From Jiangella asiatica (GTDB lineage Bacteria > Actinomycetota > Actinomycetes > Jiangellales > Jiangellaceae), in NCBI RefSeq assembly GCF_004349065.1, contig NZ_SMKZ01000028.1, forward strand, positions 1-64,000: a DNA stretch of 64,000 nt, in the 5' to 3' direction. Positions 22,164 to 39,810 of the stretch are shown one piece after another. The position numbers and the translations under genes are program-made. Every line of letters starts with the position of its first letter. The stretch's first letter is position 1. The notes beneath the pieces are model-generated. The model was not told the origin of the DNA. It ran no database searches and saw only the letters and a program-made list of their open reading frames with translations.

Positions 22164-22174
22164 TCTGATGAATC
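22164..22174. promoter_or_regulatory. Second copy of TCTGATGAATC operator candidate
   Basis: An exact copy of the 11-mer found at 16947-16957, here in the region between the divergent GH106-like and GH42-like genes. A partial copy (TCTGATG) follows at 22206-22212, 42 bases on. Confidence 0.5.
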
Positions 22175-22251
22175 TTCAAGACTTCCGATGTCATTGGTCT
22201 AGAACTCTGATGTCTTGAATCCTGTCCGAAACGCGAAAGAGGACGGCCGCG

Positions 22252-24549
22252 ATGGATGCCGAGGACCTGACCAGACGAGCCTTCATGAAGTCGCTCGCGG
22301 CCTCGGCCGCCGTTGCCGGCTTCCTCGGCGGCACCGGCGCCGCGGTCGCCGGGCCGCCCGGCGCGCCCGCGGCCGGCGCCGGCCGGCGGATCGCGGTCCG
22401 CGATCACCGCGGCGCACCGGCCATCATGATCGGCGACCAGGCGCTTCCGGCCATCGCGTACATGACGTATCTCCCGCACCGTGGGCAGTACGAGGACTTC
22501 GCCGGCGCCGGGTACGGCGTGTACAGCGTGGCCTGCTACTTCGGCGACCGCGGGATCAACTCCACCAGCGGGATCAAGCCGTTCCGGCCCGGCCTCTGGG
22601 TGGGGCCGGGCAACTACGACTTCTCCGCCGTAGACGAGGACCTCGCCCGCGTGGTCGCAGCCCAGCCGAACGCGCTCGTCATCCTGAGGGTCAACCTCGA
22701 CGTCCCGCAATGGTGGGAGTCGCTGCACCCGGGTGAGCTGAGCGTGTCCGCCAACGGCGGCACCCTGCGGCAGTCGTTCAGCTCTGCCGTCTGGAGGGAC
22801 GAGGCCGGGCAGGCACTGCTGGCACTCATCAGGCACATCGCCGCCTCGCCGTACGCGAACAACCTCATCGCCTACCACCTCGGTGCGGGCCAGACCGAGG
22901 AATGGATGTACCACGGCAACCGTGACCGGCTGCCCGACTACAGCGAACCGCACCAGCGGGCGTTCCGTTCCTGGCTGCGCCGGACGTACCGGTCCGACGC
23001 GGCGCTGCGAGCCGGCTGGCACGATCCGGCCGTGTCGCTGCGCACCGCCACCGTCCCGGACGCGGCCGCACGCACCGGTGACCCGGCCCGGCTCTTCCGC
23101 GACCCGGACTCCGAGCAGCAGGTGATCGACTACTACCGGTTCCACTCGTACGCGGCCGCCGACGCCGTGGTCCACTTCTGCCGCACGGTCAAGAAGGAGG
23201 TCGGCGATTCCGCACTGGCCGGCGCGTTCTACGGGTACATCTTCGAGACCACCCACGTGGACGTCGGGCAGCACGCGCTGCACCACATCCTCACGTCGCC
23301 GTACGTCGAGTTCCTCGCCAGCCCGAGCAGCTACCTCCGCCGTCAGCCGGGCTACGACTGGTCGTACTTCAGCCTCACCGACTCGGTCAAGCTGCACGGC
23401 AAGCTCTGGATGAGCGAGGCCGACACCCGGACGCACCTGACGGTGGGCCTGTCGGTCGCCGCGCCCGAGATCAATCCCACCGGCTCCGTCCCCGGCCCCT
23501 ACGACACCGCGCTCTGGCAGGGGCCCGACGACCCGCGGATCACGATGTCGTTGTTGCGGAACAATCTCGCCCGCGCCATCACCAACGGCGCCGGGCTGTG
23601 GTGGTTCGACATGTGGGGCGGCTGGTACGACGACCCCGAGATGATGGCCTTCATGGCGAAGGCACGCGACCTGGTCGCGGAGTCGCTAACCGCCGACCGC
23701 CGCTCGACCGCCGAGGTCGCCGTGTTCGCCGACGAGGCCAGCATGGCCCACTTCGGCTACAGCCGGAACCACAACCAGCAGTTCCTCTACGGCCAGCGGC
23801 TCGAGCTCGGCTCGATGGGCACGCCGTACAACATCTTCCACTTCCAGGACCTGCTCGACGAGCGCACGCACGACTACTCGCTCTACGTGTTCCTCAACAC
23901 GGTCAAGGTCGACCGCGACCTACGCCGAGCGGTACAGCGGCTGCGCGATCGGGGCAAGAGCTTCGTGTGGGGTCACGGCGCGGGCTGGTTCGGCTACGGG
24001 GACCCCGGCGCCGGCGGCGTCACCGACCTCACGGGCGTCGAGATGACGGCGACGGAGCAGGCGGCGCGGCTGCGGGTGACCACCGTCCAGAGCACGTCCG
24101 CCGCCCTTGCCGGCATCGCACCGGGTACGACGTTCGGCACGACGAGCGCCGTCGGCGCCCCGCTGATCCATCCGACCGGTGGCAACGGCGAGGTGCTTGC
24201 CACCGTCGAGGGAACGTCGATACCCGGCGTCGTGCGGGTCGAGCACCGACGCGGTGGTCATTCGACGTACTCGGTGGCGCCGCGGATGCCACCTCAGCTC
24301 CTTCGCAACGCGGCGAAGCAGGCCGGGGCGCATGTCTACGTCGACAACGACGACGTCGTCTACGCCAGCCACCGATTCGTCGCCCTGCACGCGACCTCCG
24401 ACGGCCCGCGCACCATCCACCTGCCCAGGGTGGCCGCGGTCATCACCGACGCCTTCGGGCTTGATGACACGCCGATCGCACGGCACACCGACAGCGTCAC
24501 GATCCAGTGCCGAGAACACGAGACCTACGTCCTGCGTCTCGTGCCGTAA
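22252..24549 (+). CDS. Tat-exported GH42-like glycoside hydrolase
   Basis: The 765-residue protein starts with a twin-arginine signal (LTRRAFMKSLAASAAVAGFL). The catalytic barrel resembles clan GH-A beta-galactosidase-like enzymes: LIAYHLGAGQTEEW carries a candidate acid/base glutamate, and KLWMSEADTRTH a candidate nucleophile. A following WWFDMWGGWYDDPEMMAF segment ends the barrel. The C-terminal part (AEVAVFADEASMAHFG onward) resembles the GH42 trimerisation/amidotransferase-like domain. The exact family is uncertain. It shares the cluster A operator candidate upstream. Confidence 0.68.
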   Translation: MDAEDLTRRAFMKSLAASAAVAGFLGGTGAAVAGPPGAPAAGAGRRIAVRDHRGAPAIMIGDQALPAIAYMTYLPHRGQYEDFAGAGYGVYSVACYFGDRGINSTSGIKPFRPGLWVGPGNYDFSAVDEDLARVVAAQPNALVILRVNLDVPQWWESLHPGELSVSANGGTLRQSFSSAVWRDEAGQALLALIRHIAASPYANNLIAYHLGAGQTEEWMYHGNRDRLPDYSEPHQRAFRSWLRRTYRSDAALRAGWHDPAVSLRTATVPDAAARTGDPARLFRDPDSEQQVIDYYRFHSYAAADAVVHFCRTVKKEVGDSALAGAFYGYIFETTHVDVGQHALHHILTSPYVEFLASPSSYLRRQPGYDWSYFSLTDSVKLHGKLWMSEADTRTHLTVGLSVAAPEINPTGSVPGPYDTALWQGPDDPRITMSLLRNNLARAITNGAGLWWFDMWGGWYDDPEMMAFMAKARDLVAESLTADRRSTAEVAVFADEASMAHFGYSRNHNQQFLYGQRLELGSMGTPYNIFHFQDLLDERTHDYSLYVFLNTVKVDRDLRRAVQRLRDRGKSFVWGHGAGWFGYGDPGAGGVTDLTGVEMTATEQAARLRVTTVQSTSAALAGIAPGTTFGTTSAVGAPLIHPTGGNGEVLATVEGTSIPGVVRVEHRRGGHSTYSVAPRMPPQLLRNAAKQAGAHVYVDNDDVVYASHRFVALHATSDGPRTIHLPRVAAVITDAFGLDDTPIARHTDSVTIQCREHETYVLRLVP

Positions 24550-24677: not shown

Positions 24678-25538
24678 ATGAGTGGGCCGTCGCGAGAGCT
24701 GCCGATCGTGCCGCGCCGGTCGGGCGCGGTGGACGAGGGCGACCACGGGGTCCACGGCCGCGGCATCTTCGACGCCGGGCTGCTCGACCGTTGCATCTCG
24801 TGCGGCTTTTGCCTGCCGGTCTGTCCCACCTATGCGCTGGAGAAGGACGAGCAGTCCTCGCCGCGCGGGCGGATCACGCTGATGCGGGCGCTGGAGGCCG
24901 GCCGGCTGGAGCCCGACGACCCGACGCTGCAGCACGAGGCGTCGTTCTGCCTGGGCTGCCGCGCCTGCGAGACGGTGTGCCCGGCCGGCGTCGAGTACGG
25001 GCCGATGCTCGAGCAGTGGCGCGACCACCAGTGGCGGGCCGGGCACGGCCCGGCGCCGGCGCGGTGGCTGCGCTGGGCGGTGGCCCGGCGGCTGCCGCTG
25101 CGGCTGGCCGGGCTGGTGCGACGCTTCGCCCGAACCCGCGCCCGCTCGGTCGACCCCGACACCCCGCACGTCATGCTCGGCTGTGCCGAGCGGGTGCTGT
25201 TCCCCAAGGTCAGCCGGGCCGCGGTGGCACTTGTCGACGGCGCCGACGCGCCGGCCGCGCAGGGCTGCTGCGGTGCCCTGCACGCCCACAACGGCGACTC
25301 CACCGGCGGTCGCGCGATGGCCGAGCGGCTGGGACGCGACCTGCCCGGCACCATCGTCACCACCTCCGGCGGCTGCGCGGCGCACCTGGCCGACGCGCTG
25401 GGCCGCGACCGCGTCGTCGAGATCAGCGAATACCTGGCCCGGTCGGGCTGGTCGCCTGGTACGAAGCTCATGACCCACGGTTCCCACGGCCACCCGCGCC
25501 CGATCCGGGTGACCTTGCAGGACTCCTGCCACCGGATT
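24678..25538 (+). pseudogene. Iron-sulfur subunit of glycolate-oxidase type (GlcF-like), 3' truncated
   Basis: Two 4Fe-4S ferredoxin motifs are intact (CISCGFCLPVCPTYALE and CLGCRACETVCPAGVE), followed by the first CCG domain (ARG.. MLGCAER ... GCCGALHAHNGD). The second cysteine-rich domain starts (VTLQDSCHRI) but breaks at about 25538. There the sequence runs antisense into the 5' end of another gene, and the frame only ends at 25652 in unrelated codons. No FAD subunit is adjacent. Electron transfer for 2-hydroxyacid oxidation would have been its role. The start has a poor ribosome binding site. Confidence 0.75.
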
Positions 25539-25579
25539 CCGGCGGCCGCGAAGGCCGCCGCTTCGTCGCTCATGGTCAT
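25536..25579 (-). pseudogene. Decapitated gene start (MTMSDEAAAFAAAG...) fused antisense to the GlcF fragment
   Basis: On the minus strand a very strong ribosome binding site (GGAGGAGGTGACACACC) precedes ATG at 25579. About 15 codons encode MTMSDEAAAFAAAGIRW before the frame enters the antisense of the GlcF fragment. It lies downstream of the thiolase gene in the same direction, so it may be the lost last gene of the cluster B operon. The family is not recognised from so few residues. Confidence 0.5.
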
Positions 25580-25758
25580 GGTGTGTCACCTCCTCCGAGG
25601 TGGGGTCAGTCGGGTCTGGTCAGCCCGGTCAGCGACGCCAGGTAAGCGTTGAAGTCGGGTGCGCTATATGTTGAAACGGAAAGGAGTGGGTGCTCGCCTT
25701 CCTTCATCGTCCGCAGCGGACGGGCGCCAAGCGGCGCGACCGGCTCGGACGTCGTGAG

Positions 25759-26928
25759 CTAAGGCTGACGCAGCAACAGAGCCTCACCCTGGCCACCGCC
25801 GCCGCAGATCGCAGCGACTCCCCACTCGACGTCACGGCGGCGCATCTCGATGGCTAGGGTAAGGACCAGCCGGAACCCGGAAGCCCCAAGCGGATGGCCG
25901 AGTGCGATGGCGCCGCCGTTGACGTTGACGTTGTCGAGGTCGATACCCAGGTCGTCGGTCGAGGCCAGGACCACGCCGGCGAACGCCTCGTTGATTTCCC
26001 AGAGGCCCACGTCGCTGGTTGTGAGGCCACGGCGCTCCAGCAGGCGCCGGGCGGCGGCGGCGGGCATCAGGTGCAGACTCGAGTCCCGTCCGGCGACGTT
26101 CGCCCACCCTTCGATCACAGCCAGCGTCGGCAGTCCCAACGCCTTTGCCCGGTCCGCCCGCGCCAGCATGCCGGCGGCGGCGGCGTCCGACAGCTGGGAA
26201 GCGTTGCCCGCCGTGATCGTGCCGTCCGGGGTGAACGCCGGCGGCAAGGCGCGCAAGGACGCGGCGGTCGAGTGCGGGCGGATCCCGTCATCCGCCGGCG
26301 GCGCGTCCAGCCCTGACGCGTCGATCTCGTGTGCAAAACGCCCGGTCACGGTGGCGTGGTGCGCCCGGCGGTGGCTCTCGGCGGCGAAGGCGTCCTGCTC
26401 GGCCCGGCCGATACCCAGCCGCTCGTTCTCCCTGTCGCTCAGAACGCCCATCCCCACCTGGTCGAGAGAACACCACAGACCGTCGTGCTCGAGCAGGTCG
26501 ACCGGCTCGCCCCGGTCCTGGTCGGCGGTTGTGCCTCGGCGCCGCCGAACCGCCGTGGCCAGCGGCGCCCGGCTCATCGACTCGAACCCGCCGGCGAGGC
26601 CGGTCGTGACCTCGCCGGCCCCGATCATCCGCGCCACGTGAACCACGGCAGTCATGCTCGCCAGGCACACGTCGTTGACGGTCACTCCGGCGACCTCACG
26701 GCTCACACCGCCTCGCACTGCCGCCACCCGCGCGGGGTTCTGCCCGTTCCCGGCCTGGACGACGTTGCCCAGGGCGACGTACTCGGGGGCGAGCCCCGGG
26801 CACCGGCGGAGGACGGCTCGGACCACTGCGGCGCCGAGATCCGTGGCGGCATGGCGGGACAGCCGGCCACCCAGCCTGCCGATCGACGTGCGCGCGCCTG
26901 CGATGAGCACGGGGGTCGCGTCGTTCAC
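25759..26928 (-). CDS. Thiolase family acyltransferase
   Basis: The 389-residue enzyme has the complete thiolase catalytic set: the nucleophilic cysteine in VTVNDVCLASM, the NEAF loop (WEINEAFAGV), the His of GGAIALGHPLGASG, and the C-terminal CGGGGQGEALL. It should cleave 3-ketoacyl-CoA or condense acetyl-CoA. The GTG start at 26928 overlaps the MFS stop by four bases. It is the last intact gene of the cluster B operon. Together with MaoC it suggests a CoA-linked beta-oxidation-like step. Confidence 0.92.
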   Translation of the reverse strand: MNDATPVLIAGARTSIGRLGGRLSRHAATDLGAAVVRAVLRRCPGLAPEYVALGNVVQAGNGQNPARVAAVRGGVSREVAGVTVNDVCLASMTAVVHVARMIGAGEVTTGLAGGFESMSRAPLATAVRRRRGTTADQDRGEPVDLLEHDGLWCSLDQVGMGVLSDRENERLGIGRAEQDAFAAESHRRAHHATVTGRFAHEIDASGLDAPPADDGIRPHSTAASLRALPPAFTPDGTITAGNASQLSDAAAAGMLARADRAKALGLPTLAVIEGWANVAGRDSSLHLMPAAAARRLLERRGLTTSDVGLWEINEAFAGVVLASTDDLGIDLDNVNVNGGAIALGHPLGASGFRLVLTLAIEMRRRDVEWGVAAICGGGGQGEALLLRQP

Positions 26929-28154
26929 GCGAAAACCGCCTCCCGGTTTCGGTTGTCGGTCAAGGGCGCCAGCCGGCTCATGGCCACGCATCCCCAAACG
27001 GGGCCGACGGCGAGCACGGCGAGGGCGAGCCACCACCCTCCCGCCTGGACCAGCAACGGCACGGCCTGGATCGTGACGACCGTCAGGAGGAACCCGAGCG
27101 CTGTCTGGGCGGTGAGCGCTGTGCCCACGTATCGGTGATCGACGACGGTTGTCAGACACGCAGAGAACAGCCCGGAGTCCGCGATCACGGTCGCGCCCCA
27201 AACCATGGCCACGGCGATGACCATCCAGGACGGCCGACCGAACATCACCGCCGCCAGCAGACAGCAGGTCGCGCTGCCGGCCATCGCTCCCGCGGCGGTG
27301 CGCGCCCGTCCCAGACGGTCACCTGCCCATCCCGCGAACGGGCAGCCGAGCAGGCCGCCCACTCCGATGGCCAGGAACGCGACTATCGCCGGCGACAACG
27401 AGCCGCCGCCCCCGGCGGCCTGGCTGGCCGCGAGGTAGGACGGCAACCACGTCCACACCGCGTACAACTCCCACATGTGGCCGAAATAGCCGAGGTTGGC
27501 CAGCCGGGGCCCGCGCTCCCGGAACAACGCGACCACGTAGCCGGGCCGGAACGGCGCCGCTGGCAGGGCATCGGGGCCCGGTCGCACCCAGCAGCCGGCC
27601 AGGACGGCGCCGGCAACGCCGAGCCCGCCGGCGGCGTAGAGCACCGCCTCCCACGGCAGCCGGCCGAAGCTGGACAGCAAATGCGGCAGCGCGCTGCCCA
27701 AGCTGAGCGAACCGACGAGCACTCCCAAAGCCAGCCCGCGGCCGCGGTCGAACCACGAGGCCATCAGCTTCAGTCCCGGCGGATACACGCCCGCCAGGGC
27801 GAAGCCGGTCGTGAACCGCAGGACCAGCGCGGTGCCCAGGCCGCCCGCCATCGCCGCGAGCGCCACCGTCGCCGCCACGGCGAGGAGGGAGCAGCCGCAG
27901 ACCAAGACCTGAACCGGCACCCGGTCGGGCAGATTCAGCACCGCCGAGGCGACGGCCCCGCAGACGAAGCCGAGCTGGACCGAGGCGGTCAGCCAGGCCG
28001 CGCCGCCCGCCGTCAGGCCCCACTCGGCCGTGAGCGACGGGACGACGGCGGAGGCCGAGAACCAGGTGACCATCACGAGGATTTGCACCGCCGCGATCAA
28101 GATGAGCTGTCGGCGGGCCGCGGCACCGCCCGCGACCGCCACGGCCGGACTCAC
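26925..28154 (-). CDS. MFS transporter (nitrate/cyanate-type fold)
   Basis: The 409-residue membrane protein has about twelve hydrophobic segments. It has the MFS loop between segments 2 and 3 (LNLPDRVPVQ region) and a second in the C-terminal half (GWAGDRLGRARTAAG). The N-terminal half (WFSASAVVPSLTAEWGLT) resembles the CynX/NNP group. The GTG start at 28154 overlaps the MaoC stop. It may export or import a carboxylate made in this operon, but the substrate is unknown. Confidence 0.88.
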   Translation of the reverse strand: MSPAVAVAGGAAARRQLILIAAVQILVMVTWFSASAVVPSLTAEWGLTAGGAAWLTASVQLGFVCGAVASAVLNLPDRVPVQVLVCGCSLLAVAATVALAAMAGGLGTALVLRFTTGFALAGVYPPGLKLMASWFDRGRGLALGVLVGSLSLGSALPHLLSSFGRLPWEAVLYAAGGLGVAGAVLAGCWVRPGPDALPAAPFRPGYVVALFRERGPRLANLGYFGHMWELYAVWTWLPSYLAASQAAGGGGSLSPAIVAFLAIGVGGLLGCPFAGWAGDRLGRARTAAGAMAGSATCCLLAAVMFGRPSWMVIAVAMVWGATVIADSGLFSACLTTVVDHRYVGTALTAQTALGFLLTVVTIQAVPLLVQAGGWWLALAVLAVGPVWGCVAMSRLAPLTDNRNREAVFA

Positions 28155-28597
28155 GTTCGGCGGGCGCCGAGCCCGACCGTGTAGGTGAGCGCCGTTCCGT
28201 CGAGCACCAACTCGCCGTCGACTCGTGTCACGGTCGTCTTCAGGCGGGCGATGGGCTTGTCGTGACGCACCTCGAGGACCTCGACCCGGCCCGTGATCTC
28301 GTCTCCCGGCCGTACAGGGGCGAGAAAGCTCCATTCGACCTTCAGGAACACCGAACCCGGACCGGGCAGGTCCTCGGCGACGACGGCGTTCAGGATGCCC
28401 GACGTGACGCCGCCCTGGACGATGATCCCACCGAAACGGGAAGCGGCGGCTGCCGCTTCGTCGTAGTGCAACGGGTTGCGGTCTCCGGTGATAGCGGTGA
28501 AGTGCTGGATGTCCTCGGCACCAACCGTCCTGCTTCGGAAGGCTGTCGCGCCGATGCCGGGAGCGCCGTCCGGCCACGCGGAGGTCACGTCAGGCAT
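28151..28597 (-). CDS. MaoC-like (R)-hydratase/dehydratase
   Basis: The 148-residue hot-dog-fold protein carries the hydratase signature in DIQHFTAITGDRNPLHYDEA (catalytic Asp and His) and a later GGIIVQGGVTSGIL helix. It should hydrate trans-2-enoyl-CoA or an analogous substrate. It overlaps the Gfo/Idh/MocA gene by eight bases and the MFS gene by four, so it is part of the tight cluster B operon. Confidence 0.9.
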   Translation of the reverse strand: MPDVTSAWPDGAPGIGATAFRSRTVGAEDIQHFTAITGDRNPLHYDEAAAAASRFGGIIVQGGVTSGILNAVVAEDLPGPGSVFLKVEWSFLAPVRPGDEITGRVEVLEVRHDKPIARLKTTVTRVDGELVLDGTALTYTVGLGARRT

Positions 28598-29744
28598 AAG
28601 AGGGCACCTGGACGGGCTTTCCACCGGCCAGCGCCGACTCGTGGGCGCAGATGCCCGGCGCGGTCCACGCCGCGGCGGTCGCGGTGTCGACGGCCGGCGG
28701 CCGGTGTTCGACGATGCTCGATACGAACTCGTGCACCAGGTGCGGGTGCGATCCGCCGTGCGCCGCCGGCACGACGACGGGCCCGCCGCCGTCGTGCGGA
28801 ACCAGCTGGTGCGGGCGCAAGTACGGTGTGACCTCCGCCGGCAGGCGGTCATCGCGGTCCGGCGCGTACAGCTGGGTCACGGCCAGGTCGGTCCCGTGCC
28901 GGCGGCCATCCGACCCCCCGGTGGCGGTGGACGTCTCCTCGAACAGCATCACCGGGTCGCCCTCGGCCCCGGACCACTCGAAGCTGCCCCGGTCGCCGTA
29001 GACCGAGAAGCCTTCGACCGTGGGCCGAGCGGTCTGGAAGAACGAGACCGTGACCTGCGCGACCAGGTCGGAGTCGCGGAGGCGGAAAAGCCCCACCTCG
29101 GCCGGATACGGGTTGCCCTTCTCGCCCAGCCGATCGTCGGTCAGCCTGCCCGAGCCGTACGCCGTGACCTCCGCCACGGTCCGGCCCGTCAACGCGAGGG
29201 CGGGGGAGAGGGCGTGCGTGGAGTACTTCATCGGCGGGTAGCCGCGCCAGTACTCCGGATGCCCGTCCAGGTTTTGCACGTGGTAGCCCCGGTACAGGAT
29301 CAGCTCGCCGAGCCGGCCGGTCCGGCGCAGCTGGTCGGCCAGGAGATACTCGCGACCGAAAACCGCGGTCTCCATCATCATGTAGACCGTTCCGGTCCGC
29401 CGCTGGGCGGCCACGATCGCCTCGAGATCGGCCAGCTCGGTGGCCATGGGAACGGCGCAGGCGCAATGCTTGCCCGCGGCGAGGGCCGCGAGCGCATAAT
29501 CAGCATGCAACGCCACGGGCGTGAGGATGTGGACCGCCTGCCAGCGTTCGTCCGCGAGCACGTCGTCGAAGCTCCGGTAGCGGTGCCGGACGCCGTGCCG
29601 GTCGCCCACCTCGCGCAGCCGGTCGGCGGAGGTGTCGACGATGGCGACCGAGCGGACGTGGGGATGGGACAGGTAGATCGGCAGGAACTGCTCGCCGAAG
29701 CGCAGCCCCACCACGGCGACGTCGACGCCGTCTGGCCCGGTCAC
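28590..29744 (-). CDS. Gfo/Idh/MocA-family oxidoreductase lacking the EKP lysine
   Basis: The 384-residue protein has an N-terminal NAD(P)-binding domain (VDVAVVGLRFGEQFLP, degenerate GxGxxG) and a C-terminal beta-sheet domain with GYPPMKYSTHALSPALALTG. The normal EKP loop, which carries the conserved catalytic Lys, reads CACAVPMATELADLEA, so Lys is replaced by Val. A His remains in the STHALSP segment. It may use a changed mechanism or a different substrate. GTG start overlaps the EthD gene by four bases. Confidence 0.85.
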   Translation of the reverse strand: MTGPDGVDVAVVGLRFGEQFLPIYLSHPHVRSVAIVDTSADRLREVGDRHGVRHRYRSFDDVLADERWQAVHILTPVALHADYALAALAAGKHCACAVPMATELADLEAIVAAQRRTGTVYMMMETAVFGREYLLADQLRRTGRLGELILYRGYHVQNLDGHPEYWRGYPPMKYSTHALSPALALTGRTVAEVTAYGSGRLTDDRLGEKGNPYPAEVGLFRLRDSDLVAQVTVSFFQTARPTVEGFSVYGDRGSFEWSGAEGDPVMLFEETSTATGGSDGRRHGTDLAVTQLYAPDRDDRLPAEVTPYLRPHQLVPHDGGGPVVVPAAHGGSHPHLVHEFVSSIVEHRPPAVDTATAAAWTAPGICAHESALAGGKPVQVPSYA

Positions 29745-30058
29745 GCGACCGACACCTGCTCTTCGACCCCGAACAGCATTGTCGCTCCTCCGGTGGCGAA
29801 GTTCGGCACATCATTTCGCGCGGCCCGGCCGGCCGGCGAGTCCAGGACGGTCGTCATCGTCTCGATGTCGGGCGCGTAGAGCTCCACGACGAGGTAGACC
29901 GGCGGCATGACGTCGCCGTCCTGCTTGCCGACCCAGCTGAGCGTCCAGCCGGACAAGCCGCGCATCAGGCGGGCGATCGGCAGATGGACGTCGCGGTAGT
30001 ACGCGTCGAAGGCGGCTGGATCGTCGGGCCAGCCGTAGAGGACCGTCACCTTGTACAC
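29741..30058 (-). CDS. EthD-domain (dimeric alpha/beta barrel) protein
   Basis: This 105-residue protein shows the EthD pattern: VTVLYGWPDDPAAFDAYYRD near the N-terminus, HLPIARLMRGLSGWTLSW in the middle, and PAGRAARNDVPNFATGG at the end. EthD-type proteins assist ring or ether catabolism, and related folds are small isomerases or lyases. The GTG start at 30058 is ten bases after the upstream stop. Confidence 0.85.
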   Translation of the reverse strand: MYKVTVLYGWPDDPAAFDAYYRDVHLPIARLMRGLSGWTLSWVGKQDGDVMPPVYLVVELYAPDIETMTTVLDSPAGRAARNDVPNFATGGATMLFGVEEQVSVA

Positions 30059-30068
30059 CCGTACCTCC

Positions 30069-30905
30069 TCAGCCGTTCAGCTGGATGTCGAGGAACCGCC
30101 GCATGTGATCGACCATGGCCACCTCGGTCGGAAGCCGCTCCATGCTCGAGGCGCCGAGGAAGCCGTGCACACCCGGCACCTTCCGCAGCACCAGGTCGAC
30201 GTCGTCCGGCTCGGCGATCGGCCCGCCGTGGCAGATGACGATCGCGTCCGGATCTTCCCTGACGATGGCGTCGCGCATCTCGGCCAGCCGGTCGAGCACC
30301 TCGGCCATCGAGATCGCGGTCCGGGCACCCACGGTCCCGGAGGTGGTCAGTCCCATGTGCGGAACCAGGATGTCGGCGCCGGCGTCGACCATCGCCCGAG
30401 CCTCGTCCGGACTGGCAACGTACGAGAGCGTCAGCAGGTCGCGTTCGCGGGCGAGGCGCACCATGTCCACCTCACGGTCGAAGCCGAGCCCCGTCTCCTC
30501 CAAGTTGGCCCGGATGATGCCCTCGAACAAGCACACCGTCGGGTAGTTCTGCACTCCGGCGAAGCCTCTCGACCGTACGTCGTCGAGCAGCCGGGGGATG
30601 GAGCGGAACGGGTCGGTGCCGCACACCCCGGCGACGACGGGTGTGTGGCGGACGACGGGCAGGACCTCGTCGGCCATCTCCATGACGATGGCGTTGGCGT
30701 CGCCATACGGCATCAGCCCCGCCATCGAGCTGCGCCCGGCCATTCGATAGCGGCCCGAGTTGTAGATGACGATGAAGTCCAGCCCGGCAAGCTCCGCGCA
30801 CTTGGCGGACAGGCCTACCCCCGCGCCACCGCCGACGACCGGCCGGCCGGTGTTGATCTTTTTCCGGAAGCCGTCGAGGATTTCGACGCGTGTCGCCTGA
30901 GTCAC
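30069..30905 (-). CDS. Phosphoenolpyruvate-hydrolase-like TIM-barrel protein
   Basis: The 278-residue protein matches the PEP-hydrolase-like family (PF09370): GRPVVGGGAGVGLSAKCAEL, LDFIVIYNSGRYRMAGR, VCGTDPFRSIPRLL and ICHGGPIAEPDDV. The fold is a TIM barrel with a divalent-metal site related to isocitrate-lyase/PEP-mutase enzymes. Its true substrate is not established. It overlaps the Tm-1-like gene by four bases; the two families are often neighbours or fused. Confidence 0.85.
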   Translation of the reverse strand: MTQATRVEILDGFRKKINTGRPVVGGGAGVGLSAKCAELAGLDFIVIYNSGRYRMAGRSSMAGLMPYGDANAIVMEMADEVLPVVRHTPVVAGVCGTDPFRSIPRLLDDVRSRGFAGVQNYPTVCLFEGIIRANLEETGLGFDREVDMVRLARERDLLTLSYVASPDEARAMVDAGADILVPHMGLTTSGTVGARTAISMAEVLDRLAEMRDAIVREDPDAIVICHGGPIAEPDDVDLVLRKVPGVHGFLGASSMERLPTEVAMVDHMRRFLDIQLNG

Positions 30906-32149
30906 GATGCACCAGCCTTCAGCCAGTCGATGAGGATCCGGGCCGCCGCCGCCGCCAACCGGGGGTCGTTGATGTGGGTGTTGAACCTTCGTACGTACAC
31001 GTGCGGGCCCAGCGACGCGGTCAGGGCGTCGATGAGCGCCGCGTCCGCCTGCGGGTCGTGGAAGACCTGTCCGGGCGTCGAGATCTGGGAGAACCCCCGC
31101 GTTGGGATCAGGACCGCGCTCGGCCCAGTGGCCCGGTTCAGCTTGACTGCCAGCTGACGGCCCAGCTCGGCGCATTCCTCGGCACTCGTGCGCATCAGGG
31201 TGACCATCGGATTGTGCCGGTGGAGCAGCCGGCCGCCGTGCGCGGCCGGAACCGTGCTCGGCGGACCGAAGTTGACCATGTCGAGCGCGCCCAGGCTGAC
31301 GACCTGCGGCACGCCGTGCTCGGCCGCGGCCGTGAGCCGGCCCGGCCCGGCCGAGCAGACCCCGCCGAGCAAGTCGTCGGCCAACTCTGTGGTCGTCATG
31401 TCGGCAACCGCCTGCACGTGACCGCTGCGGATCAGCGCTTCCATCGAAGCTCCACCGACACCGGTGGCGTGGAACGTGAGTGCCTCCGCGCCCGCCGCCG
31501 TGATCAGCTCACGCACCGTCGTGCCGCACGCCGTCGTGACGCCGAACATCGAGATTGCCACCGTGTGACGATCTGCGGCGGTGGTCTCGCGCGGGCCGTG
31601 TGCCATGCCGGCGCAGGCGTCCGCTGCGTTTGCGAGGACCAGGCGCGAGACGCGGTTGAGACCGCCGAGGTCGACGACGGGGTACATGAGCGTGAGGTCG
31701 GACTGCCCTACGTAGGGGCGGGTGTCGCCGGCCGTGATCGTGGAGACGAGCAGTTTAGGCATGCCGACTGGGAGTTCGGCGCAGACCGCAGACATCAGGA
31801 AAGCCGCATTCGAGCCGCCTGCGGCCATCACGGCATCGACCCTTCCCGCCTGACGCAGCCGTGTGACGACGCGCGCCGCGCCGGCGGCCATCGACTCCAT
31901 CGCCGCGCCCCGGTCGCGCAGGCCTCGCAGCTCCTGCAACTCATGGCCGGCGGCACGGGCGACCTCGTCTGCTGGGACGTCGGCACGCCACCGCGGCTCG
32001 CCGAGGACGCCAGCGTCGACGGTCAGCACGTCGCATCGTCGCGCCGTCAGCAAATCGCGCAGGTAGGCATACTCCTCACCTTTCGTGTCGAGGGTGCCCA
32101 GCAGCACCACCGTCGGCGTCCTGGCCGGCCGCTCGTCTTGTCCGCTCAC
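30902..32149 (-). CDS. Tm-1-like ATP-binding-domain protein (UPF0261)
   Basis: The 415-residue protein begins VVLLGTLDTKGEEYAYLRDL, the UPF0261/Tm-1-like signature, and continues with MAAGGSNAAFLMSAV, then VSTITAGDTRPYVGQSDLTL and GVCSAGPGRLTAAAE. The plant homologue Tm-1 binds a viral replication protein, but bacterial members are enzymes or enzyme partners of unknown role. It sits 12 bases after the MalG-type permease and couples to the PEP-hydrolase-like gene. Confidence 0.88.
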   Translation of the reverse strand: MSGQDERPARTPTVVLLGTLDTKGEEYAYLRDLLTARRCDVLTVDAGVLGEPRWRADVPADEVARAAGHELQELRGLRDRGAAMESMAAGAARVVTRLRQAGRVDAVMAAGGSNAAFLMSAVCAELPVGMPKLLVSTITAGDTRPYVGQSDLTLMYPVVDLGGLNRVSRLVLANAADACAGMAHGPRETTAADRHTVAISMFGVTTACGTTVRELITAAGAEALTFHATGVGGASMEALIRSGHVQAVADMTTTELADDLLGGVCSAGPGRLTAAAEHGVPQVVSLGALDMVNFGPPSTVPAAHGGRLLHRHNPMVTLMRTSAEECAELGRQLAVKLNRATGPSAVLIPTRGFSQISTPGQVFHDPQADAALIDALTASLGPHVYVRRFNTHINDPRLAAAAARILIDWLKAGAS

Positions 32150-32161
32150 GTCATCCCCGCC

Positions 32162-32989
32162 CTACCGCACCGCTCCGAGGGACAGGCCCGCGACGAGCCG
32201 CCGCTTGGCGATGAGGAACACCACGAGAAGGGGGAGCGAGGTCAGCAGGGACAGGCCCATGAGACGGCTCCACTCCACTGAATACATGGAGGTCTGCTGG
32301 GCCAGCAAGCCGCTCACCGGCAGCCCTTGCTGGTTGGTGATCAGGGTGGTCGCGTAGACGAACTCGCCCCACGTCATGATGAAGACGATGGTCGCCACCG
32401 TGGCGATCCCGTTGGGCAGTAGCGGGATGACGATGGACCGGAAGGTCCGCCGTCCGGAGGCGCCGTCGACCTGCGCGGCCTCGTAGATCTCGCCGGGTAT
32501 GGCGAGGACGAACGGCCTCAGCAGCAGGATGGCGAAGGGCACGAGGTTCGCCGTGTCGGCGAGAATCAGTCCTGGAAGGGTGTCCACGAGACCCCAACCG
32601 GCCAAGATCTGGTAGAGCGGGATCACCGCCATCGGCTGCGGGACCATTTGCAACACCAGGAGGGCGCCCAGGAGCACGGCGACCGTCCGGCTCCACCGCG
32701 CGGACACCTTGCGTGCGAGTGCGTACGCGGCTGGGACGGCCACCGCGAGAACCAGGACGGTCACCGCCACGGCGATCTTGATCGACGTCGCCACGGACTC
32801 GCTCGCCACCTCGAGGGTGTGGCGGAAGGTCTCCAGCGTCGGCCGGAAGAAGATGGTGTTGGGTTCGGCCCGGGCCAGCTCTTCGGACTTCAGCGCGGTC
32901 AGCGCGATCCACGCGAGCGGGATGGCGTACACGACCAGGAGGCCGAGGACGAAGGCCTTGCTCGCGAGGCCGGTCCGACGGCCGATCAC
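32162..32989 (-). CDS. Carbohydrate ABC transporter permease, MalG type (cluster B)
   Basis: The 275-residue CUT1 permease has about six membrane segments and the EAA loop IYEAAQVDGASGRRTFRSIV before IPLLPNG. GTG start at 32989 overlaps its MalF-type partner by four bases. No ATPase gene is nearby. Confidence 0.9.
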   Translation of the reverse strand: MIGRRTGLASKAFVLGLLVVYAIPLAWIALTALKSEELARAEPNTIFFRPTLETFRHTLEVASESVATSIKIAVAVTVLVLAVAVPAAYALARKVSARWSRTVAVLLGALLVLQMVPQPMAVIPLYQILAGWGLVDTLPGLILADTANLVPFAILLLRPFVLAIPGEIYEAAQVDGASGRRTFRSIVIPLLPNGIATVATIVFIMTWGEFVYATTLITNQQGLPVSGLLAQQTSMYSVEWSRLMGLSLLTSLPLLVVFLIAKRRLVAGLSLGAVR

Positions 32990-33927
32990 GCTGCCTGCTC
33001 CTTGCGGACGCCGAGCACGTACGGCACGGAAAGTACGAGGACCACGACCATCGACAGGACGGCGATGGCGCTGGCGAGGTCAAACGAGTACGTGCGAAAC
33101 GCGGTTTGATATGCGAGGAAGGGCAAGATGTTCGTCGTGTCCCCAGGCCCGCCGCCAGTCAGCACGTACACGAAGTTGAAGCTCCCGAAGGCGTAGAGGA
33201 TGAGCAGGATCGTCAGCACCGCCAGCGTCGGGCGGAGCAGCGGCAAAATCACCCGGGTGGCGCGCTGCCAAGCGTTCGCACCGTCGAGAGCGGCGGCCTC
33301 GAGCACATCGGGCGGGATCGACATCAGCCCGCCGCGGATAATCAGAATGGCGAAGGGCAGGCTGGCCCACGCCGCGACCAAGCTCACCGACCACAGCGCG
33401 ACCGACGGGGAGCTGAGCCAGTCCACCGGTCCGAGTCCGACCATGCCGAGCGCGGCGTTCACCCCGCCGTCGCCGGAGAGCAGGAACTTCCACACGCTGC
33501 CACTCACCAGCGGCGGGAGCGTCCACACGAACACCAGCAGCGACAAGGTGGCGCCGATAAGCCTGCCACGTCCGGTCAGCGCGAGGGCAGCAACGAAACC
33601 GATGATCAGGTCGACCACGAGCAGGACAGCGGTCAGTAGCGCCGTCACCTTCGCGGCGTTCCAGAACGCCGCGTCGTTGAGGACCGCCCCGAAGTTTTCC
33701 AGGCCGACGAGTTCCCACGCGCTGATGAGCGTCGTGGTCCCGACGTCGCTCACCGACATCCGGGCCAGCTGGACGAGCGGATACACCAGGAGGGCGCCGG
33801 CGACGACCAGCGCGGGAAACAGGTACGGCGCCAGCCACGGCCGGGGTAGCCGGCCGTCCGAACGCTGGCGGCGGCCAGCGGCCGGGCGGGCGGCCAGCGG
33901 CGAGGTGTCGATCACGCGCCCGTTCAT
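32986..33927 (-). CDS. Carbohydrate ABC transporter permease, MalF type (cluster B)
   Basis: The 313-residue CUT1 permease has a Pro/Arg-rich cytoplasmic N-terminus and about six membrane segments. The EAA loop VLEAAALDGANAWQRATRVI precedes LPLLRPTL. It starts two bases after the binding-protein stop. Confidence 0.9.
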   Translation of the reverse strand: MNGRVIDTSPLAARPAAGRRQRSDGRLPRPWLAPYLFPALVVAGALLVYPLVQLARMSVSDVGTTTLISAWELVGLENFGAVLNDAAFWNAAKVTALLTAVLLVVDLIIGFVAALALTGRGRLIGATLSLLVFVWTLPPLVSGSVWKFLLSGDGGVNAALGMVGLGPVDWLSSPSVALWSVSLVAAWASLPFAILIIRGGLMSIPPDVLEAAALDGANAWQRATRVILPLLRPTLAVLTILLILYAFGSFNFVYVLTGGGPGDTTNILPFLAYQTAFRTYSFDLASAIAVLSMVVVLVLSVPYVLGVRKEQAA

Positions 33928-33929
33928 GC

Positions 33930-35171
33930 CTAGCAGGTGCTCCCGCCTTGCTCGCGCGCGTCCGCGACTTCCGCGATGACGTCATCGGCAGCCTGCTCGG
34001 CGCTCTTCTGGCCGGAGATGACGGCGCTGACGGCCGCGCCCATCGCCTGCTGCATGGCGGCGGTCTGCTCGTTCATCGGCCACGCCCCGGAGTCGCCGGC
34101 GGCCGCGACGAACGGCCGCACCAGCGCGTCTTCTCTCAGGTCCTGGTGTTCGGCCAGATCTGTTCGGGTCGGAATCTGCCCGGAGGTGTTGAAGTTGATG
34201 AGGCTGGCCTCGTCGGACAGCCAGGCCGTCTCGATGTACTCCCAGGCCAGGTCCTGCTGATCGCTGAAGGCGCCGATGCCGAGGCCCTCGCCGCCCAGGA
34301 AGACATGGCTGCCGTCGGGTCCGGCGGGGAATCGGGCGGTGCCGATCCACTCAGCACCGCGCGCGTCGCCGAGATTCCAGTTGCCGTTGATTCCGAACGC
34401 CACGTCACCGCCGAAGAACTGCTGCCAGGCGTCCGGCCCGATCCAGGTGGACGTGTCGCGGGGGACGAAGCCCTGTTCGGTCCACCGCTGCAGCCGCTCG
34501 AACTCCTCATGGACGATCTCGCCCTCGAGGTTGCAGTAGTCCACGCCCCGACCGAGCAGGAGCGGCATGAAATTCCACGCGCCGGCCGTGCCTGCCGCGC
34601 CGGCCATGGCCAGCGGCACGTATTTGCCGTCCGCGGCGACGGTCTGCATGGCCGCCTCGAACTCAGTGACGCTCTCCGGCGGCGCCAAATCGTACTCGTC
34701 GAGGATGTTCTGGTTGTAGTACAGGCCGAGCAGATTCGTGTACGACATGACCGTGTAGACCTTGTCGTCGGATCGCCACGCGGCGTTGTCGGGCAACTGC
34801 TCGGCGACCTCGGACTCATTCCAGTAGTCCGTCAGGTCGGCGAGAACGCCCGCTCCGGCCAGGGCGGGAAAGTCGACCGGCACGTTGTGGAGCACCACGT
34901 CCGGGCCATCTTCGGTGGACGCCGTGGCCAGCAGGCGGGACGGCAATTGTTCGAACGGGATCTGCACGTACTCGACCGGGACATCCGGATGCGCCTCCGC
35001 CCACAACTCGTGCTGCTTCTCGAGCGCCTCTGCCGGCCCACCGGAGAAGTAGTACCAGACGACCAAGCCGTCCGACGCCTCCGTAGCGTCGTCGCCGGAT
35101 CCGCAGGCCGCCATCAGCATGCCGCCAACAGCGGCGAGTGCGAGGGTTCTCGACCTCCGCCGCCTGTGCAT
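33930..35171 (-). CDS. Extracellular sugar-binding lipoprotein (cluster B)
   Basis: The 413-residue protein has an RR-type signal peptide with a lipobox before Cys (GMLMAACGSGDD) and the family 1 solute-binding fold starting GLVVWYYFSGGPAEALEKQH. ATG at 35171 is chosen because GGAGG precedes it at correct spacing; the upstream ATG at 35189 lies in that ribosome binding site. It is the first gene of the cluster B operon, divergent from the ROK regulator. The ligand is unknown. Confidence 0.92.
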   Translation of the reverse strand: MHRRRRSRTLALAAVGGMLMAACGSGDDATEASDGLVVWYYFSGGPAEALEKQHELWAEAHPDVPVEYVQIPFEQLPSRLLATASTEDGPDVVLHNVPVDFPALAGAGVLADLTDYWNESEVAEQLPDNAAWRSDDKVYTVMSYTNLLGLYYNQNILDEYDLAPPESVTEFEAAMQTVAADGKYVPLAMAGAAGTAGAWNFMPLLLGRGVDYCNLEGEIVHEEFERLQRWTEQGFVPRDTSTWIGPDAWQQFFGGDVAFGINGNWNLGDARGAEWIGTARFPAGPDGSHVFLGGEGLGIGAFSDQQDLAWEYIETAWLSDEASLINFNTSGQIPTRTDLAEHQDLREDALVRPFVAAAGDSGAWPMNEQTAAMQQAMGAAVSAVISGQKSAEQAADDVIAEVADAREQGGSTC

Positions 35172-35250
35172 CGGATCACGCTCCTCCATTGAGGCCTGGC
35201 GACCTTTGCCGGGCCATTTATGTCGTTCGTCACTGTAAACCTGTCGATGT

Positions 35251-35260
35251 TTGACGTCAA
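35251..35260. promoter_or_regulatory. Palindrome TTGACGTCAA between ROK gene and cluster B
   Basis: A perfect 10-bp palindrome, extended outward as TGT...ACA with a one-base offset, in the 131-base gap between the divergent cluster B operon and the ROK gene. It is a reasonable operator candidate. Confidence 0.45.
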
Positions 35261-35302
35261 CAACCCAGATTTAGTGCTCGTGAGCTGCTATATAGTTCGC
35301 TT

Positions 35303-36496
35303 GTGGTCACATCGATAGCAAGCAGGGGGCGCATCGCCCGCTCCGGGGAAGTCCTGGACCTCGTTCGTCGTGGCCGCGCTACCACGACGTCCGAACTCGC
35401 CGAAATCATGGGAGTCGCTCGTTCCACCGTGACGGAGCGGGTCGACCTGCTAGTCAGCCATGGCCTCCTGGTCCCGGCCAGCATCATGCCCGCGCGCCGG
35501 GGCCGACCGCCGACGGTCCTGACGTTCAACGCACGGGCGGGGCTTACCCTCGCCGCCCAACTGGGGATGAGCGGCACCCGCGTCGCGGTCACCGACTTCG
35601 ACGGCACAGTGCTGTGGAGTGAGACCGTGGTGCTCGACATCGGCCATGGGCCGGACGTGGTGCTCGAACGGATCACGTCGGAGTTCGGACGGGCGCTGGC
35701 CGAGCTCGGACAGCCCCGAGACCGCGTGCACGGCGTCGGCATCGGCCTACCCGGCAAGGTGGAGCTGGCCACGGCGCAGCGAACGGCCACCGGATCGGCG
35801 CGTTCCTGGATCGACTACCCCGTCGCAGAACGTCTGGAGGCCGCCGGTCTGGGTCCGGTGTTCGTCGACCAGGACGTCAACCTCCTGGCCCTGGGTGAGC
35901 ATCGTGCGTCCTGGCCGTCGGTGGGCGTCTTCATGTTCCTCAAGGTCGGCAGCGTCATCGGCTGCGGCATCGTGATCGACGGAAAGGTGGTGCGCGGGGT
36001 GGCGGGCTTGGCCGGGGAGATCGGCCACACCCGGGCGCCGGGCCGCGACACCGAGTGCGCGTGCGGCGGGCGTGGCTGCCTCAACGCCGTCGCCGGGGGC
36101 ACCGCCCTCGCCCGGGATCTGGCCCAGGCCGGGTTCGACGCGGCGACGGCACGCGACGTTGTCCGGCTCGCCCAGGACGGCGTCGTCGAGGCGGGCCAGG
36201 CTATCCGCGCTGCCGGGCGCGACATCGGGGACGTTCTGGCTGCGGCGATCAACCTGCTGAACCCCGGAGTCATATCGGTGTGGGGTTATCTGGCCGATGC
36301 CGGCGACCAGCTCTTCGCCGGCATCCAGGAGCAGATCTACAGTTCGGCGGTGCACGGGGCGACGCACCTGCTCCGCCTCGAGCCCTCGCGGCTGGGCGAC
36401 GACGCCGGCATCCGCGGCGCAGCAATGACCGTAGTGGAGCACGCCCTCCTTCCGGAGGCTGTCGACCGGTATCTGCTGCAGGCGCACGAAGCGTGA
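35303..36496 (+). CDS. ROK-family transcriptional regulator (NagC/XylR type)
   Basis: The 397-residue protein has an N-terminal winged helix (TTTSELAEIMGVARSTVTER) and a ROK sugar-kinase-like domain. The zinc motif ECACGGRGCLNAVAGG and the GHTRAPGRDTE segment are clear. The phosphate loop and GIGLPGKVE region suggest a ligand-binding role rather than catalysis. It is divergent from the cluster B operon and probably represses it until a sugar is bound. Confidence 0.9.
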   Translation: MVTSIASRGRIARSGEVLDLVRRGRATTTSELAEIMGVARSTVTERVDLLVSHGLLVPASIMPARRGRPPTVLTFNARAGLTLAAQLGMSGTRVAVTDFDGTVLWSETVVLDIGHGPDVVLERITSEFGRALAELGQPRDRVHGVGIGLPGKVELATAQRTATGSARSWIDYPVAERLEAAGLGPVFVDQDVNLLALGEHRASWPSVGVFMFLKVGSVIGCGIVIDGKVVRGVAGLAGEIGHTRAPGRDTECACGGRGCLNAVAGGTALARDLAQAGFDAATARDVVRLAQDGVVEAGQAIRAAGRDIGDVLAAAINLLNPGVISVWGYLADAGDQLFAGIQEQIYSSAVHGATHLLRLEPSRLGDDAGIRGAAMTVVEHALLPEAVDRYLLQAHEA

Positions 36497-37035: not shown

Positions 37036-37112
37036 CTTGAGTCGCTCCATCGACGTCAGTGCAGCTCTCTCGACAGATTGTGCCGCACGACCGCGAATTG
37101 AAGGGAGCAGTC

Positions 37113-38735
37113 ATGACCAGGCCTTCCCGGAACCCCCGCAGGGCCTTGCTCGGCGCCCTGATCGCCGGCTCGGCCCTCGTCGTCAGCGGCCTCGCCGGGG
37201 CGCCCGCCAGCGCTGGCCCGGACGACCCCACGCAGCCCGACGTGCTCATCGCGACCGAGGAGGGCGAACAGAAGCCGTTCTTCCCAGAGATCGCGCACCT
37301 CGACGACGGCCGGCTCTTGACCGTCTTCTACTGGAACAACGAGCACTCCGCCGGGATCCCCGGGGGCGACCACGACGGGCAAGTGCGGTGGACGGAGAGC
37401 ACGGACGGCGGGGCGACCTGGTCGCAGCCGCGGGTCGTGATCGACACGTCGTTCGACGACCGCGACGCACAGATCACCCAACTGCGCGACGGAACCATCG
37501 TGATCACCTGGTTCCAGACTGACTGGACCGGATATCCCGACACGGCCGCCACGCTGCGCGGCACCTACGTGGTGCGCTCCGAAGACGGCGGGCAGACGTG
37601 GTCCGAGCCGGCCTTGGTGCAATCGTCGATGAGCTGCGGGTGCGGCCCGCGAAGCGGCGCGTACCACCTGGGCTGGTCCGCCGAGTCCGGTGAGGTCGTC
37701 GAACTCGACGACGGCGACCTGCTGATCCCCCTCTACGGCACGCGCCCGGACTCCACGCTCGGCCGCGCCAGCGTCGTGCGCAGCACCGACGGCGGGCGGA
37801 CCTGGCCGCTGGAGAACGAGGTCATGCTCCCCGCCGAGCCAGGCGTCGCACTCTCCGAAACCGAACTGGCGGTCCTCCCCGACGGGCACGTCACCGCGGT
37901 AATTCGCCCTGGGTACGTCAGCGACTCCTACGACGGCGGCCGCACCTGGACCGTCGCGAGCAAGGTCCCGTGGAGCATGCAGGCCCCGGATCTGATGACC
38001 CTGCCCGGCGGAATGGTGTTGCTCACCTACGGCGGGCGAGACTACGGCTCGAACGAGCCGATCGTCGGCCGGCTCCGGCACCGCGACCAGGCCTGGACCG
38101 ACACGAACCCCGTCCTGCTGTACATGTCGCAGCAGAACGTGGACCAGGGCGACCCCAGCACCGCGGTCGTGCGGGGCGGCCGGTTCCTCACGGTCAGCTA
38201 CGACACCAACATCCACGCCGTCGTCGGCACCTTCAGCTCCCTCAGCGACTACGTCGACGTCCAGCCGCCGGAGCACGAGACCGCCCCAGAATCCGAGGAC
38301 GTCCTCAACCTTCCCGCCATGGTCGCCGCGGGAAAGGCCACCTACGAGACCGATCTGACCAGCAGCCACCGGGACCACCCCACCGCTCAGCCCGGCGGAG
38401 CGGTCGACGGCGTGGCCGAATACTGGCACTGCTCCCTCGGACCCGTCGCCACACCCGAGGCGCCGCGCCACTTCACCCTCAGCTTCGCCGAACCACAGCG
38501 GATCTCGTGGATCGGACTGAACCTCAAACCCGGCTACGCCGAGACCGTCTCCGTCTACCTCTCGACCAACGGCGAGAACTGGGGCGATCCGGTCGACGTC
38601 CGCATCGCACACGTCTCCGTCGCCGGCCAGATCGCCTGGGCAAAGATCGACCGCACCACCGCCCAGCACGTCAAGATCGTCATCACCGAATCCGCCGGAG
38701 CCTCCATGCTCGCCGAACTGAGCATCGCCCGCTGA
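37113..38735 (+). CDS. Secreted sialidase-fold protein with C-terminal F5/8-like domain (second Asp-box protein)
   Basis: The 540-residue protein has a cleavable signal (RRALLGALIAGSALVVSGLA then ASAGP). The propeller carries Asp-boxes STDGGATWSQ, SEDGGQTWSE, STDGGRTWPL and SYDGGRTWTV and a conserved Cys pair (MSCGCGPRSG). From about residue 400 a discoidin-like domain follows (HFTLSFAEPQRISWIGLNLK ... VSVYLSTNGENWGDPV). AAGGGAG precedes the ATG. Activity as exo-sialidase is possible but the full arginine triad was not verified. Confidence 0.8.
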   Translation: MTRPSRNPRRALLGALIAGSALVVSGLAGAPASAGPDDPTQPDVLIATEEGEQKPFFPEIAHLDDGRLLTVFYWNNEHSAGIPGGDHDGQVRWTESTDGGATWSQPRVVIDTSFDDRDAQITQLRDGTIVITWFQTDWTGYPDTAATLRGTYVVRSEDGGQTWSEPALVQSSMSCGCGPRSGAYHLGWSAESGEVVELDDGDLLIPLYGTRPDSTLGRASVVRSTDGGRTWPLENEVMLPAEPGVALSETELAVLPDGHVTAVIRPGYVSDSYDGGRTWTVASKVPWSMQAPDLMTLPGGMVLLTYGGRDYGSNEPIVGRLRHRDQAWTDTNPVLLYMSQQNVDQGDPSTAVVRGGRFLTVSYDTNIHAVVGTFSSLSDYVDVQPPEHETAPESEDVLNLPAMVAAGKATYETDLTSSHRDHPTAQPGGAVDGVAEYWHCSLGPVATPEAPRHFTLSFAEPQRISWIGLNLKPGYAETVSVYLSTNGENWGDPVDVRIAHVSVAGQIAWAKIDRTTAQHVKIVITESAGASMLAELSIAR

Positions 38736-39777: not shown

Positions 39778-39810
39778 CCCGGCATTCCAAAACCCACGTG
39801 GAGGTGCTCG

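Follow-up and report, generated by a model that had tools for sequence, protein, structure and literature searches.

A 64,000-nucleotide stretch of the Jiangella asiatica genome (contig NZ_SMKZ01000028.1, positions 1 to 64,000; hereafter the window) carries on its minus strand, from 35171 to 25759, ten co-directional genes that form a real, tight, composite and probably catabolic operon around a gene pair that is already known and recurrent. The pair encodes a Tm-1-like protein (Tm1) and a phosphoenolpyruvate (PEP) hydrolase-like barrel protein (PEPh). We read the operon as the join of two separately recurring gene sets: module A comprises a sugar ATP-binding cassette (ABC) importer, Tm1, PEPh and an EthD-family protein, and module B an oxidoreductase, a MaoC protein, a major facilitator superfamily (MFS) transporter and a thiolase. 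That one catabolic pathway runs through both modules is a tentative reading, which we place a little short of an even chance. The genes, from open reading frame calls and Pfam searches, are given here in operon order.

33930..35171, minus strand: sugar-type ABC substrate-binding lipoprotein (SBP_bac_8; Pfam)
32986..33927, minus strand: ABC permease 1 (BPD_transp_1; Pfam)
32162..32989, minus strand: ABC permease 2 (BPD_transp_1; Pfam)
30902..32149, minus strand: Tm1, with UPF0261 N and C domains, probable small-molecule kinase (Pfam, structure comparison)
30069..30905, minus strand: PEPh, PEP_hydrolase (PF09370) triosephosphate isomerase (TIM) barrel (Pfam; ~54% identity to the solved Mll9387, 2p10)
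29741..30058, minus strand: EthD-family small protein (Pfam, TIGR02118)
28590..29744, minus strand: GFO/IDH/MocA-like protein with AVPMA at the EKP motif site (Pfam, alignment)
28151..28597, minus strand: MaoC, (R)-specific enoyl-coenzyme A (CoA) hydratase-like, with a DRNPLH motif (Pfam, motif)
26925..28154, minus strand: MFS transporter (MFS_1; Pfam)
25759..26928, minus strand: thiolase with the usual Cys, His and Cys residues (Pfam, motifs)

The nine junctions measure, in operon order, +2, -4, +12, -4, +10, -4, -8, -4 and -4 bases. Six of them are overlaps of 4 or 8 bases, and the remaining gaps are 2–12 bases. Nine consecutive junctions this tight are operon-like and would imply co-transcription; a first-pass annotation of the same DNA had likewise described one overlapped operon. 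The start codon of the first gene was chosen by its ribosome-binding site and those of the others by domain fit and packing. Pfam matches above cut-off were SBP_bac_8, two BPD_transp_1, UPF0261 N and C, PEP_hydrolase and EthD in module A, and GFO_IDH_MocA (N-terminal domain), MaoC, MFS_1 and Thiolase N and C in module B. No transporter ATPase is encoded among the ten genes.

Distribution of the Tm1/PEPh pair

We compared the operon with 122 other loci (L numbers), stretches of DNA fetched for a Tm1 or PEPh gene. These are search returns and no full census (in the named-genome scan the best 80 of 85 were kept); four pairs are, judged by length, one contig fetched twice (L027/L115, L083/L164, L086/L165, L092/L170), L033 and L172 have identical Tm1 rows, and many stretches end at contig ends. 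Matches to both Tm1 and PEPh are present in 107 of the 122, from bacteria and archaea, which bears out the recurrence of the pair noted in the first-pass annotation. Published passages place the pair in bacteria, archaea, fungi and plants and describe its coevolution and its fusion in plants, and passages on phylogenetic profiling in fungi list the two as coupled. The passages returned by literature searches on family names (UPF0261, COG, Pfam) give no reaction for the pair, and a described pathway with the gene set of the window, of which the first-pass annotation likewise knew none, was not found in the literature searched.

Relatives of window Tm1 occur in 33 of 396 phylum genomes, in 9 of 22 family genomes (own included) and in only 2 of 12 genomes of the genus (own included); no non-self match in the family, phylum and named-genome searches exceeded 58% identity. 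In the J. asiatica genome itself, UPF0261 and PEP_hydrolase are each represented by three full genes and one partial match. Elsewhere in this genome a Tm1 copy (L020, contig C33) lies behind genes of the enolase superfamily, DUF6807 and a cupin-like cluster, and near sugar-type permeases lies a short stretch of UPF0261 sequence interrupted by an internal stop (L022, contig C72:8718-8834), possibly the remnant of a fourth copy.

The complete ten-gene set was found in none of the 122 other loci. An EthD match is present in two: in Allokutzneria (L095) the gene lies 3 bases behind PEPh, the same place as in the window, and its product is 58% identical; in Streptomyces abyssalis the gene (47%) is near Tm1/PEPh on the opposite strand. 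A match to window EthD (E up to 1e-8) was obtained in 2 of 31 relatives, counting the own genome. The subfamily of the window oxidoreductase was absent from all 122 loci, the best score there being 62 bits versus 275–311 in subfamily members. Repeated companions of the pair are GFO/IDH/MocA proteins of other subfamilies, xylose-isomerase-like barrels, GlcD/GlcF-type proteins and ABC importers, and a cluster represented by a cupin lies in the same directon at 22 of 123 loci, the window among them. On conservation of the gene order, whose absence the first-pass annotation had named as a refutation, the outcome is divided: the ten genes occur together nowhere else in the searched loci, and parts of each half recur separately.

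Other neighbours of the pair were also observed. Tm1 or PEPh lies near molybdenum-hydroxylase-type subunits in L154, L155, L156 and L032/L212 (T. roseum), the subunits of L154–L156 being named by eye from sequence; in T. roseum, Tm1-PEPh also adjoins PEP-synthase-like pieces, recalling a two-part acetovanillone kinase. A second, distant PEPh-like protein of ~400–600 residues is found beside Tm1-PEPh in several phyla (L038, L039, L100, L106, L136, L139 and L143).

Divergence and conservation of the window pair

The end branch of window Tm1 measures 1.21 versus a median of 0.25 (120 rows) and that of window PEPh 1.62 versus 0.15 (92 rows), lengths that partly reflect the absence of a close relative from the sample. 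The Tm1 tree was built by a quick method, and neither tree places the window row with certainty. A measure less exposed to this bias is the number of changes at columns 90% conserved in the other rows: 11 of 100 such columns are changed in window Tm1 and 9 of 93 in window PEPh, compared with 1 each in the median row. Window Tm1 is the third most changed of 96 rows (PEPh-partnered rows only, minus L157_8 and L031_8), after L125 and tomato Tm-1, and window PEPh the fourth most changed of 92 rows (those of 255–345 residues in a 106-member cluster), after L134, L099 and L125.

Invariant columns, defined on the other rows with the window left out, are kept almost throughout. Window Tm1 keeps 27 of 27 (36 other diverse rows) and 39 of 40 (95 PEPh-partnered rows; L216 is lost), and window PEPh keeps 34 of 34 (15 other diverse rows) and 25 of 25 (91 rows). 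With the threshold lowered to 98% conservation in the large sets, 2 of 54 columns are lost in window Tm1 and 3 of 54 in window PEPh. Of the nine changes in PEPh, six (59, 121, 125, 128, 164 and 192) fall after predicted strands 2, 4, 5 and 6, on the face where barrels of this kind have their active site. Intact frames and motifs argue against decay. As far as sequence can indicate, the pattern suggests that window Tm1 and PEPh underwent a joint change of substrate.

Tm1 as a probable small-molecule kinase

Tm1 scores 193 and 281 bits for UPF0261 N and C (cut-off 27), and its predicted model has a mean predicted local distance difference test score (pLDDT) of 94.6. The model matches tomato Tm-1 with Z 45 (Foldseek, VIA-align). 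Comparison with 9mpy, the structure of Saro_1862 from Novosphingobium aromaticivorans with acetovanillone bound, gave Z 35.5 and a root-mean-square deviation (rmsd) of 7.4 over 391 residues; a value so large may stem from a different arrangement of the domains. The top VIA-align matches outside the family, UDP-N-acetylglucosamine 2-epimerases (Z up to 12.5), cover the N-terminal part only and were not used for function.

According to PMC13101465, acetovanillone catabolism in N. aromaticivorans begins with MarK, a single-component kinase, the Acv/Hpe route uses a carboxylase and a phosphatase, and the known acetovanillone routes need a kinase. The first-pass annotation had called the pair one of unknown chemistry; its reaction is still missing from the literature searched, but a UPF0261 member that binds acetovanillone, in a species with a single-component kinase for that compound, gives a kinase lead. 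In L206, L207 and L208, which are plasmids of Sphingobium, Sphingomonas and Pseudomonas putida, a Saro_1862-like gene is followed immediately by three genes with carboxylase/biotin-part annotations and one annotated as HAD hydrolase-like; L206 and L207 encode the same proteins, which makes two independent cases, not three. A fourth match carried no annotation. These neighbours match the carboxylase and phosphatase steps of Acv/Hpe, and the context supports a kinase role independently of PMC13101465. Other relatives, in Ruegeria and Variovorax, have class III aminotransferases and a HAD or phosphotransferase gene as neighbours, so the substrate is probably clade-dependent. By analogy with these systems, Tm1 is probably an ATP-dependent small-molecule kinase.

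A loop motif separates the PEPh-partnered proteins from the unpartnered ones. G[ACG][LVI]DM[VA]NFG is present in 86 of 98 PEPh-partnered rows versus 3 of 19 unpartnered rows. The rows are related, which makes a test p value unreliable as it stands; of the 12 partnered rows without the motif, most carry near-variants. Rows were called partnered if a PEPh match of >45% identity lay within 3 kb, so that L099, with a distant PEPh beside it, counted as unpartnered. Tm1 rows of <340 residues were excluded, as were three contig-edge rows from the motif test.

An alternative is that the operon degrades a hydroxyaryl ketone or an aryl glycoside in the manner of Acv, Hpe or MarK, with the kinase acting on the phenol and the thiolase and MaoC on the side chain. 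Such a substrate is suggested by the UPF0261 member with bound acetovanillone and by T. roseum, where Tm1-PEPh lies beside genes annotated as PEP/pyruvate-binding, PEP-utilizing enzyme and xanthine-dehydrogenase-family hydroxylase. However, the loop of window Tm1 is of the PEPh-partnered type and not the GNADFII type of Saro_1862, the operon includes no biotin-dependent carboxylase or other neighbouring carboxylase and no phosphatase, and the importer, the ROK regulator and the neighbouring glycosidases (see below) indicate a carbohydrate. We regard this alternative as distinctly improbable.

PEPh, a barrel with a nominal name

PEPh scores 389.5 bits for PF09370 (cut-off 33.8), and its predicted model (pLDDT 91.5) superimposes on Mll9387 (2p10) with Z 41.9 and an rmsd of 1.5 over 270 residues. 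The nearest VIA-align match outside the family is 4ml9, titled as a conserved phosphate-binding-site TIM barrel (Z 21.6, rmsd 2.9, 233 residues). Next, at Z ~17–19, come phosphonopyruvate hydrolase, PEP mutase, oxaloacetate acetylhydrolase, methylisocitrate lyase and indole-3-glycerol phosphate synthase. The top Foldseek matches outside the family are methylisocitrate lyases, barrels of the isocitrate-lyase/PEP-mutase type. Members of the isocitrate lyase/PEP mutase group carry an acidic metal-binding motif after strands 3 and 4; judged from the sequence and predicted strands, PEPh appears to have no D-x-D after strand 3 and to have Asn, not Glu, after strand 4. The ends of predicted strands 7 and 8 are glycine-rich (HGGP, GASS). 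'PEP-hydrolase', the name carried by the first-pass annotation, is a nominal one: the barrels that Foldseek ranks first outside the family are of the isocitrate-lyase/PEP-mutase type, though by VIA-align they are on a level with other barrels.

Whether PEPh acts on the phosphorylated product of Tm1 is, in our estimate, evenly balanced. It could also be a regulator or a carrier of a phosphorylated compound and not a catabolic enzyme, as hinted by an older name that passages give it, 'TIM-barrel signal transduction', and by a PEPh-like domain inside an annotated sigma-54-dependent regulator of Mesorhizobium (L039; match at L039:8577). This is very unlikely in view of the invariant columns of the family (34 in 15 diverse rows and 25 in 91 rows, window not counted) and of the stand-alone PEPh that commonly adjoins Tm1 in the same directon.

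Module B in the window and elsewhere

Four other genomes contain parts of module B; the stretches fetched from them hold no module A gene. Of 396 phylum genomes, 13 (own included) have a MaoC relative, at 58–71% identity in the 12 others. An MFS gene adjoins MaoC in three of 13 fetched MaoC loci (L234, L235 and L240), and L235 also has the thiolase (MFS-MaoC-thiolase); the other 10 lack an MFS neighbour, several of them being short or ended by the contig. In the family member G016 (L217), oxidoreductase and thiolase genes are adjacent (52% and 53% identity).

The MaoC and thiolase motifs are intact. MaoC has DRNPLH at residue 39, and a D..N..H dyad is a feature of (R)-specific enoyl-CoA hydratases. 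The thiolase has NDVCLAS, GHPLGA and CGGGGQG; thiolases use a nucleophilic Cys, a His and a second Cys. The oxidoreductase departs from its family at the EKP motif, the site of the catalytic Lys in GFO/IDH/MocA dehydrogenases. It scores 68.9 bits for the N-terminal domain (cut-off 24) and falls just under the cut-off for the C3 C-terminal model (25.5 versus 27), and reads AVP at the motif site; the nine subfamily relatives compared have T-V-P there, with A-V-T in L203. With these nine it forms a subfamily with a conserved YMMMET, whereas five oxidoreductases from other Tm1/PEPh loci keep EKP. At two loci, L200 and L202, subfamily oxidoreductases lie beside branched-chain-type permeases, in L200 with a XylR-like regulator as well. 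Solved relatives of the oxidoreductase were considered as a guide to its reaction and are too distant to assign one.

Proposed pathway

In the pathway that we propose, the ABC importer would take up a small, probably carbohydrate-linked compound, and Tm1 would use ATP to phosphorylate a hydroxyl of this compound or of an early derivative. PEPh would then cleave the phosphorylated product, most likely at a C-C or C-O bond, and EthD may assist isomerisation or ring-opening. Module B would deal with the side chain, presumably after an acyl-CoA has formed, MaoC hydrating an enoyl-CoA and the thiolase releasing acetyl-CoA. The ROK protein would repress the operon until an inducer is present.

Several observations weigh against this pathway or its individual steps. 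MaoC, MFS and thiolase of the window had no match in any of the 122 other Tm1/PEPh loci (E up to 1e-4), so it is the packing by itself that argues for a single pathway through both modules. The operon encodes no acyl-CoA ligase, CoA transferase or hydroxyacyl-CoA dehydrogenase, which leaves the CoA branch incomplete. G016 is the weakest case of module B, its thiolase standing at 53% versus 47–50% for ordinary family thiolases. The barrels at Z ~17–19 are tied and single out no reaction for PEPh. Window Tm1 is ~33% identical to Saro_1862, with GALDMVNFG versus GNADFIIGG in the loop, and Saro_1862-type operons are without PEPh, so acetovanillone chemistry is not directly transferable. A literature search on the name Saro_1862 found nothing, and its identity with MarK is what we infer. 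The source given for MarK in PMC13101465 is Hall et al. 2025 (J Biol Chem 301:110606).

Two unrelated functions on one transcript, with module B placed behind module A by chance or for shared regulation, would account for the parts of module B that recur without Tm1 or PEPh in the fetched stretches and for the absence of MaoC, MFS and thiolase from 122 of 122 other loci. However, all four junctions between EthD and the thiolase are overlaps of 4 or 8 bases, an argument for joint translation, and the pair is diverged at the one place where module B joins. We consider unrelated functions rather unlikely.

A broader and more doubtful proposal is that Tm1/PEPh is a general two-step kinase-lyase system of bacteria, archaea and fungi, fused in plants, in which both partners jointly switched substrate in J. 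asiatica and the cleavage product would pass to CoA chemistry via the newly joined MaoC-MFS-thiolase genes. On this view tomato Tm-1 would combine a metabolic kinase-lyase role with an antiviral one. With a substrate-bound family member to link it to, the pair can be approached through the testable hypothesis 'kinase, then barrel enzyme', which extends to plant Tm-1; the diverged version in the window has its own importer, whose binding-protein ligand could name the substrate directly.

Regulator, importer and surroundings

Upstream of the operon, the window contains the following features.

35249..35261, plus strand: candidate operator palindrome GTTTGACGTCAAC, between the first operon gene and the ROK gene (function inferred)
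35303..36496, plus strand: divergent ROK-family regulator (profile search)

The 13-base palindrome GTTTGACGTCAAC is a single site in the whole genome at <=1 mismatch, a uniqueness that carries little weight since its reversed control pattern has 2 genome sites. At <=2 mismatches the window has three sites versus a shuffle mean of 0.99, a number reached in 5 of 100 shuffles.

The nearest solved structures to the binding protein are those of the acarbose/maltose-binding GacH. The sugar-specific equivalogs for the binding protein and the oxidoreductase all scored far under their curated cut-offs, so the substrate cannot be named. Glycan genes abound in the window, glycoside hydrolases, sialidase-like repeats and a second importer operon among them. 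A GH106 rhamnosidase-like protein, a GH42-like protein, two BNR/sialidase-like proteins with F5/8-C domains and a GH20 protein are encoded at 18220-24549, 37059-42054 and 50373-54215. A second probable catabolic operon (9118-16191, minus strand) encodes a sugar-type binding protein, two permeases, a dihydrodipicolinate synthase-family protein and two FAD_oxidored proteins, and a GntR/FCD regulator lies at 16238-16927. The glycan-rich setting supports a carbohydrate-linked substrate without proving one; of the carbohydrate-like substrate suggested by the first-pass annotation, the importer, the regulator and the glycosidase surroundings are the whole basis.

A short GlcF-like iron-sulfur gene (24678-25652) converges on the operon. 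GlcF-like genes also lie immediately before Tm1 or PEPh in L025, L026 and L029.

Comparison with known systems

The best solved match to MaoC is the PhaJ-type (R)-specific enoyl-CoA hydratase (1iq6), which shares D..N..H; unlike PhaJ, the window MaoC is partnered by MFS and thiolase genes, in an operon without polyhydroxyalkanoate synthase genes. PEPh resembles Mll9387 (2p10) at ~54% identity and the isocitrate lyase/PEP mutase group in barrel fold. Saro_1862 (9mpy), likewise of the UPF0261 family, belongs to a catabolic operon at a step where a kinase is expected, and has DTK, GGS, VST, HNP and H-ND in common with window Tm1. Compared with the MarK, AcvABCDEF and HpeHICBADEF routes, the window operon is without carboxylase, phosphatase and ligase, and has PEPh instead. 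Plant Tm-1 is known for virus resistance, and the passages on it give no metabolic role. Plant Tm-1/Tm-1L is a UPF0261-TIM barrel fusion, in contrast to the separate genes of the window, but shares with the window the two domains and GALDMVNFG and belongs to the PEPh-partnered part of the tree.

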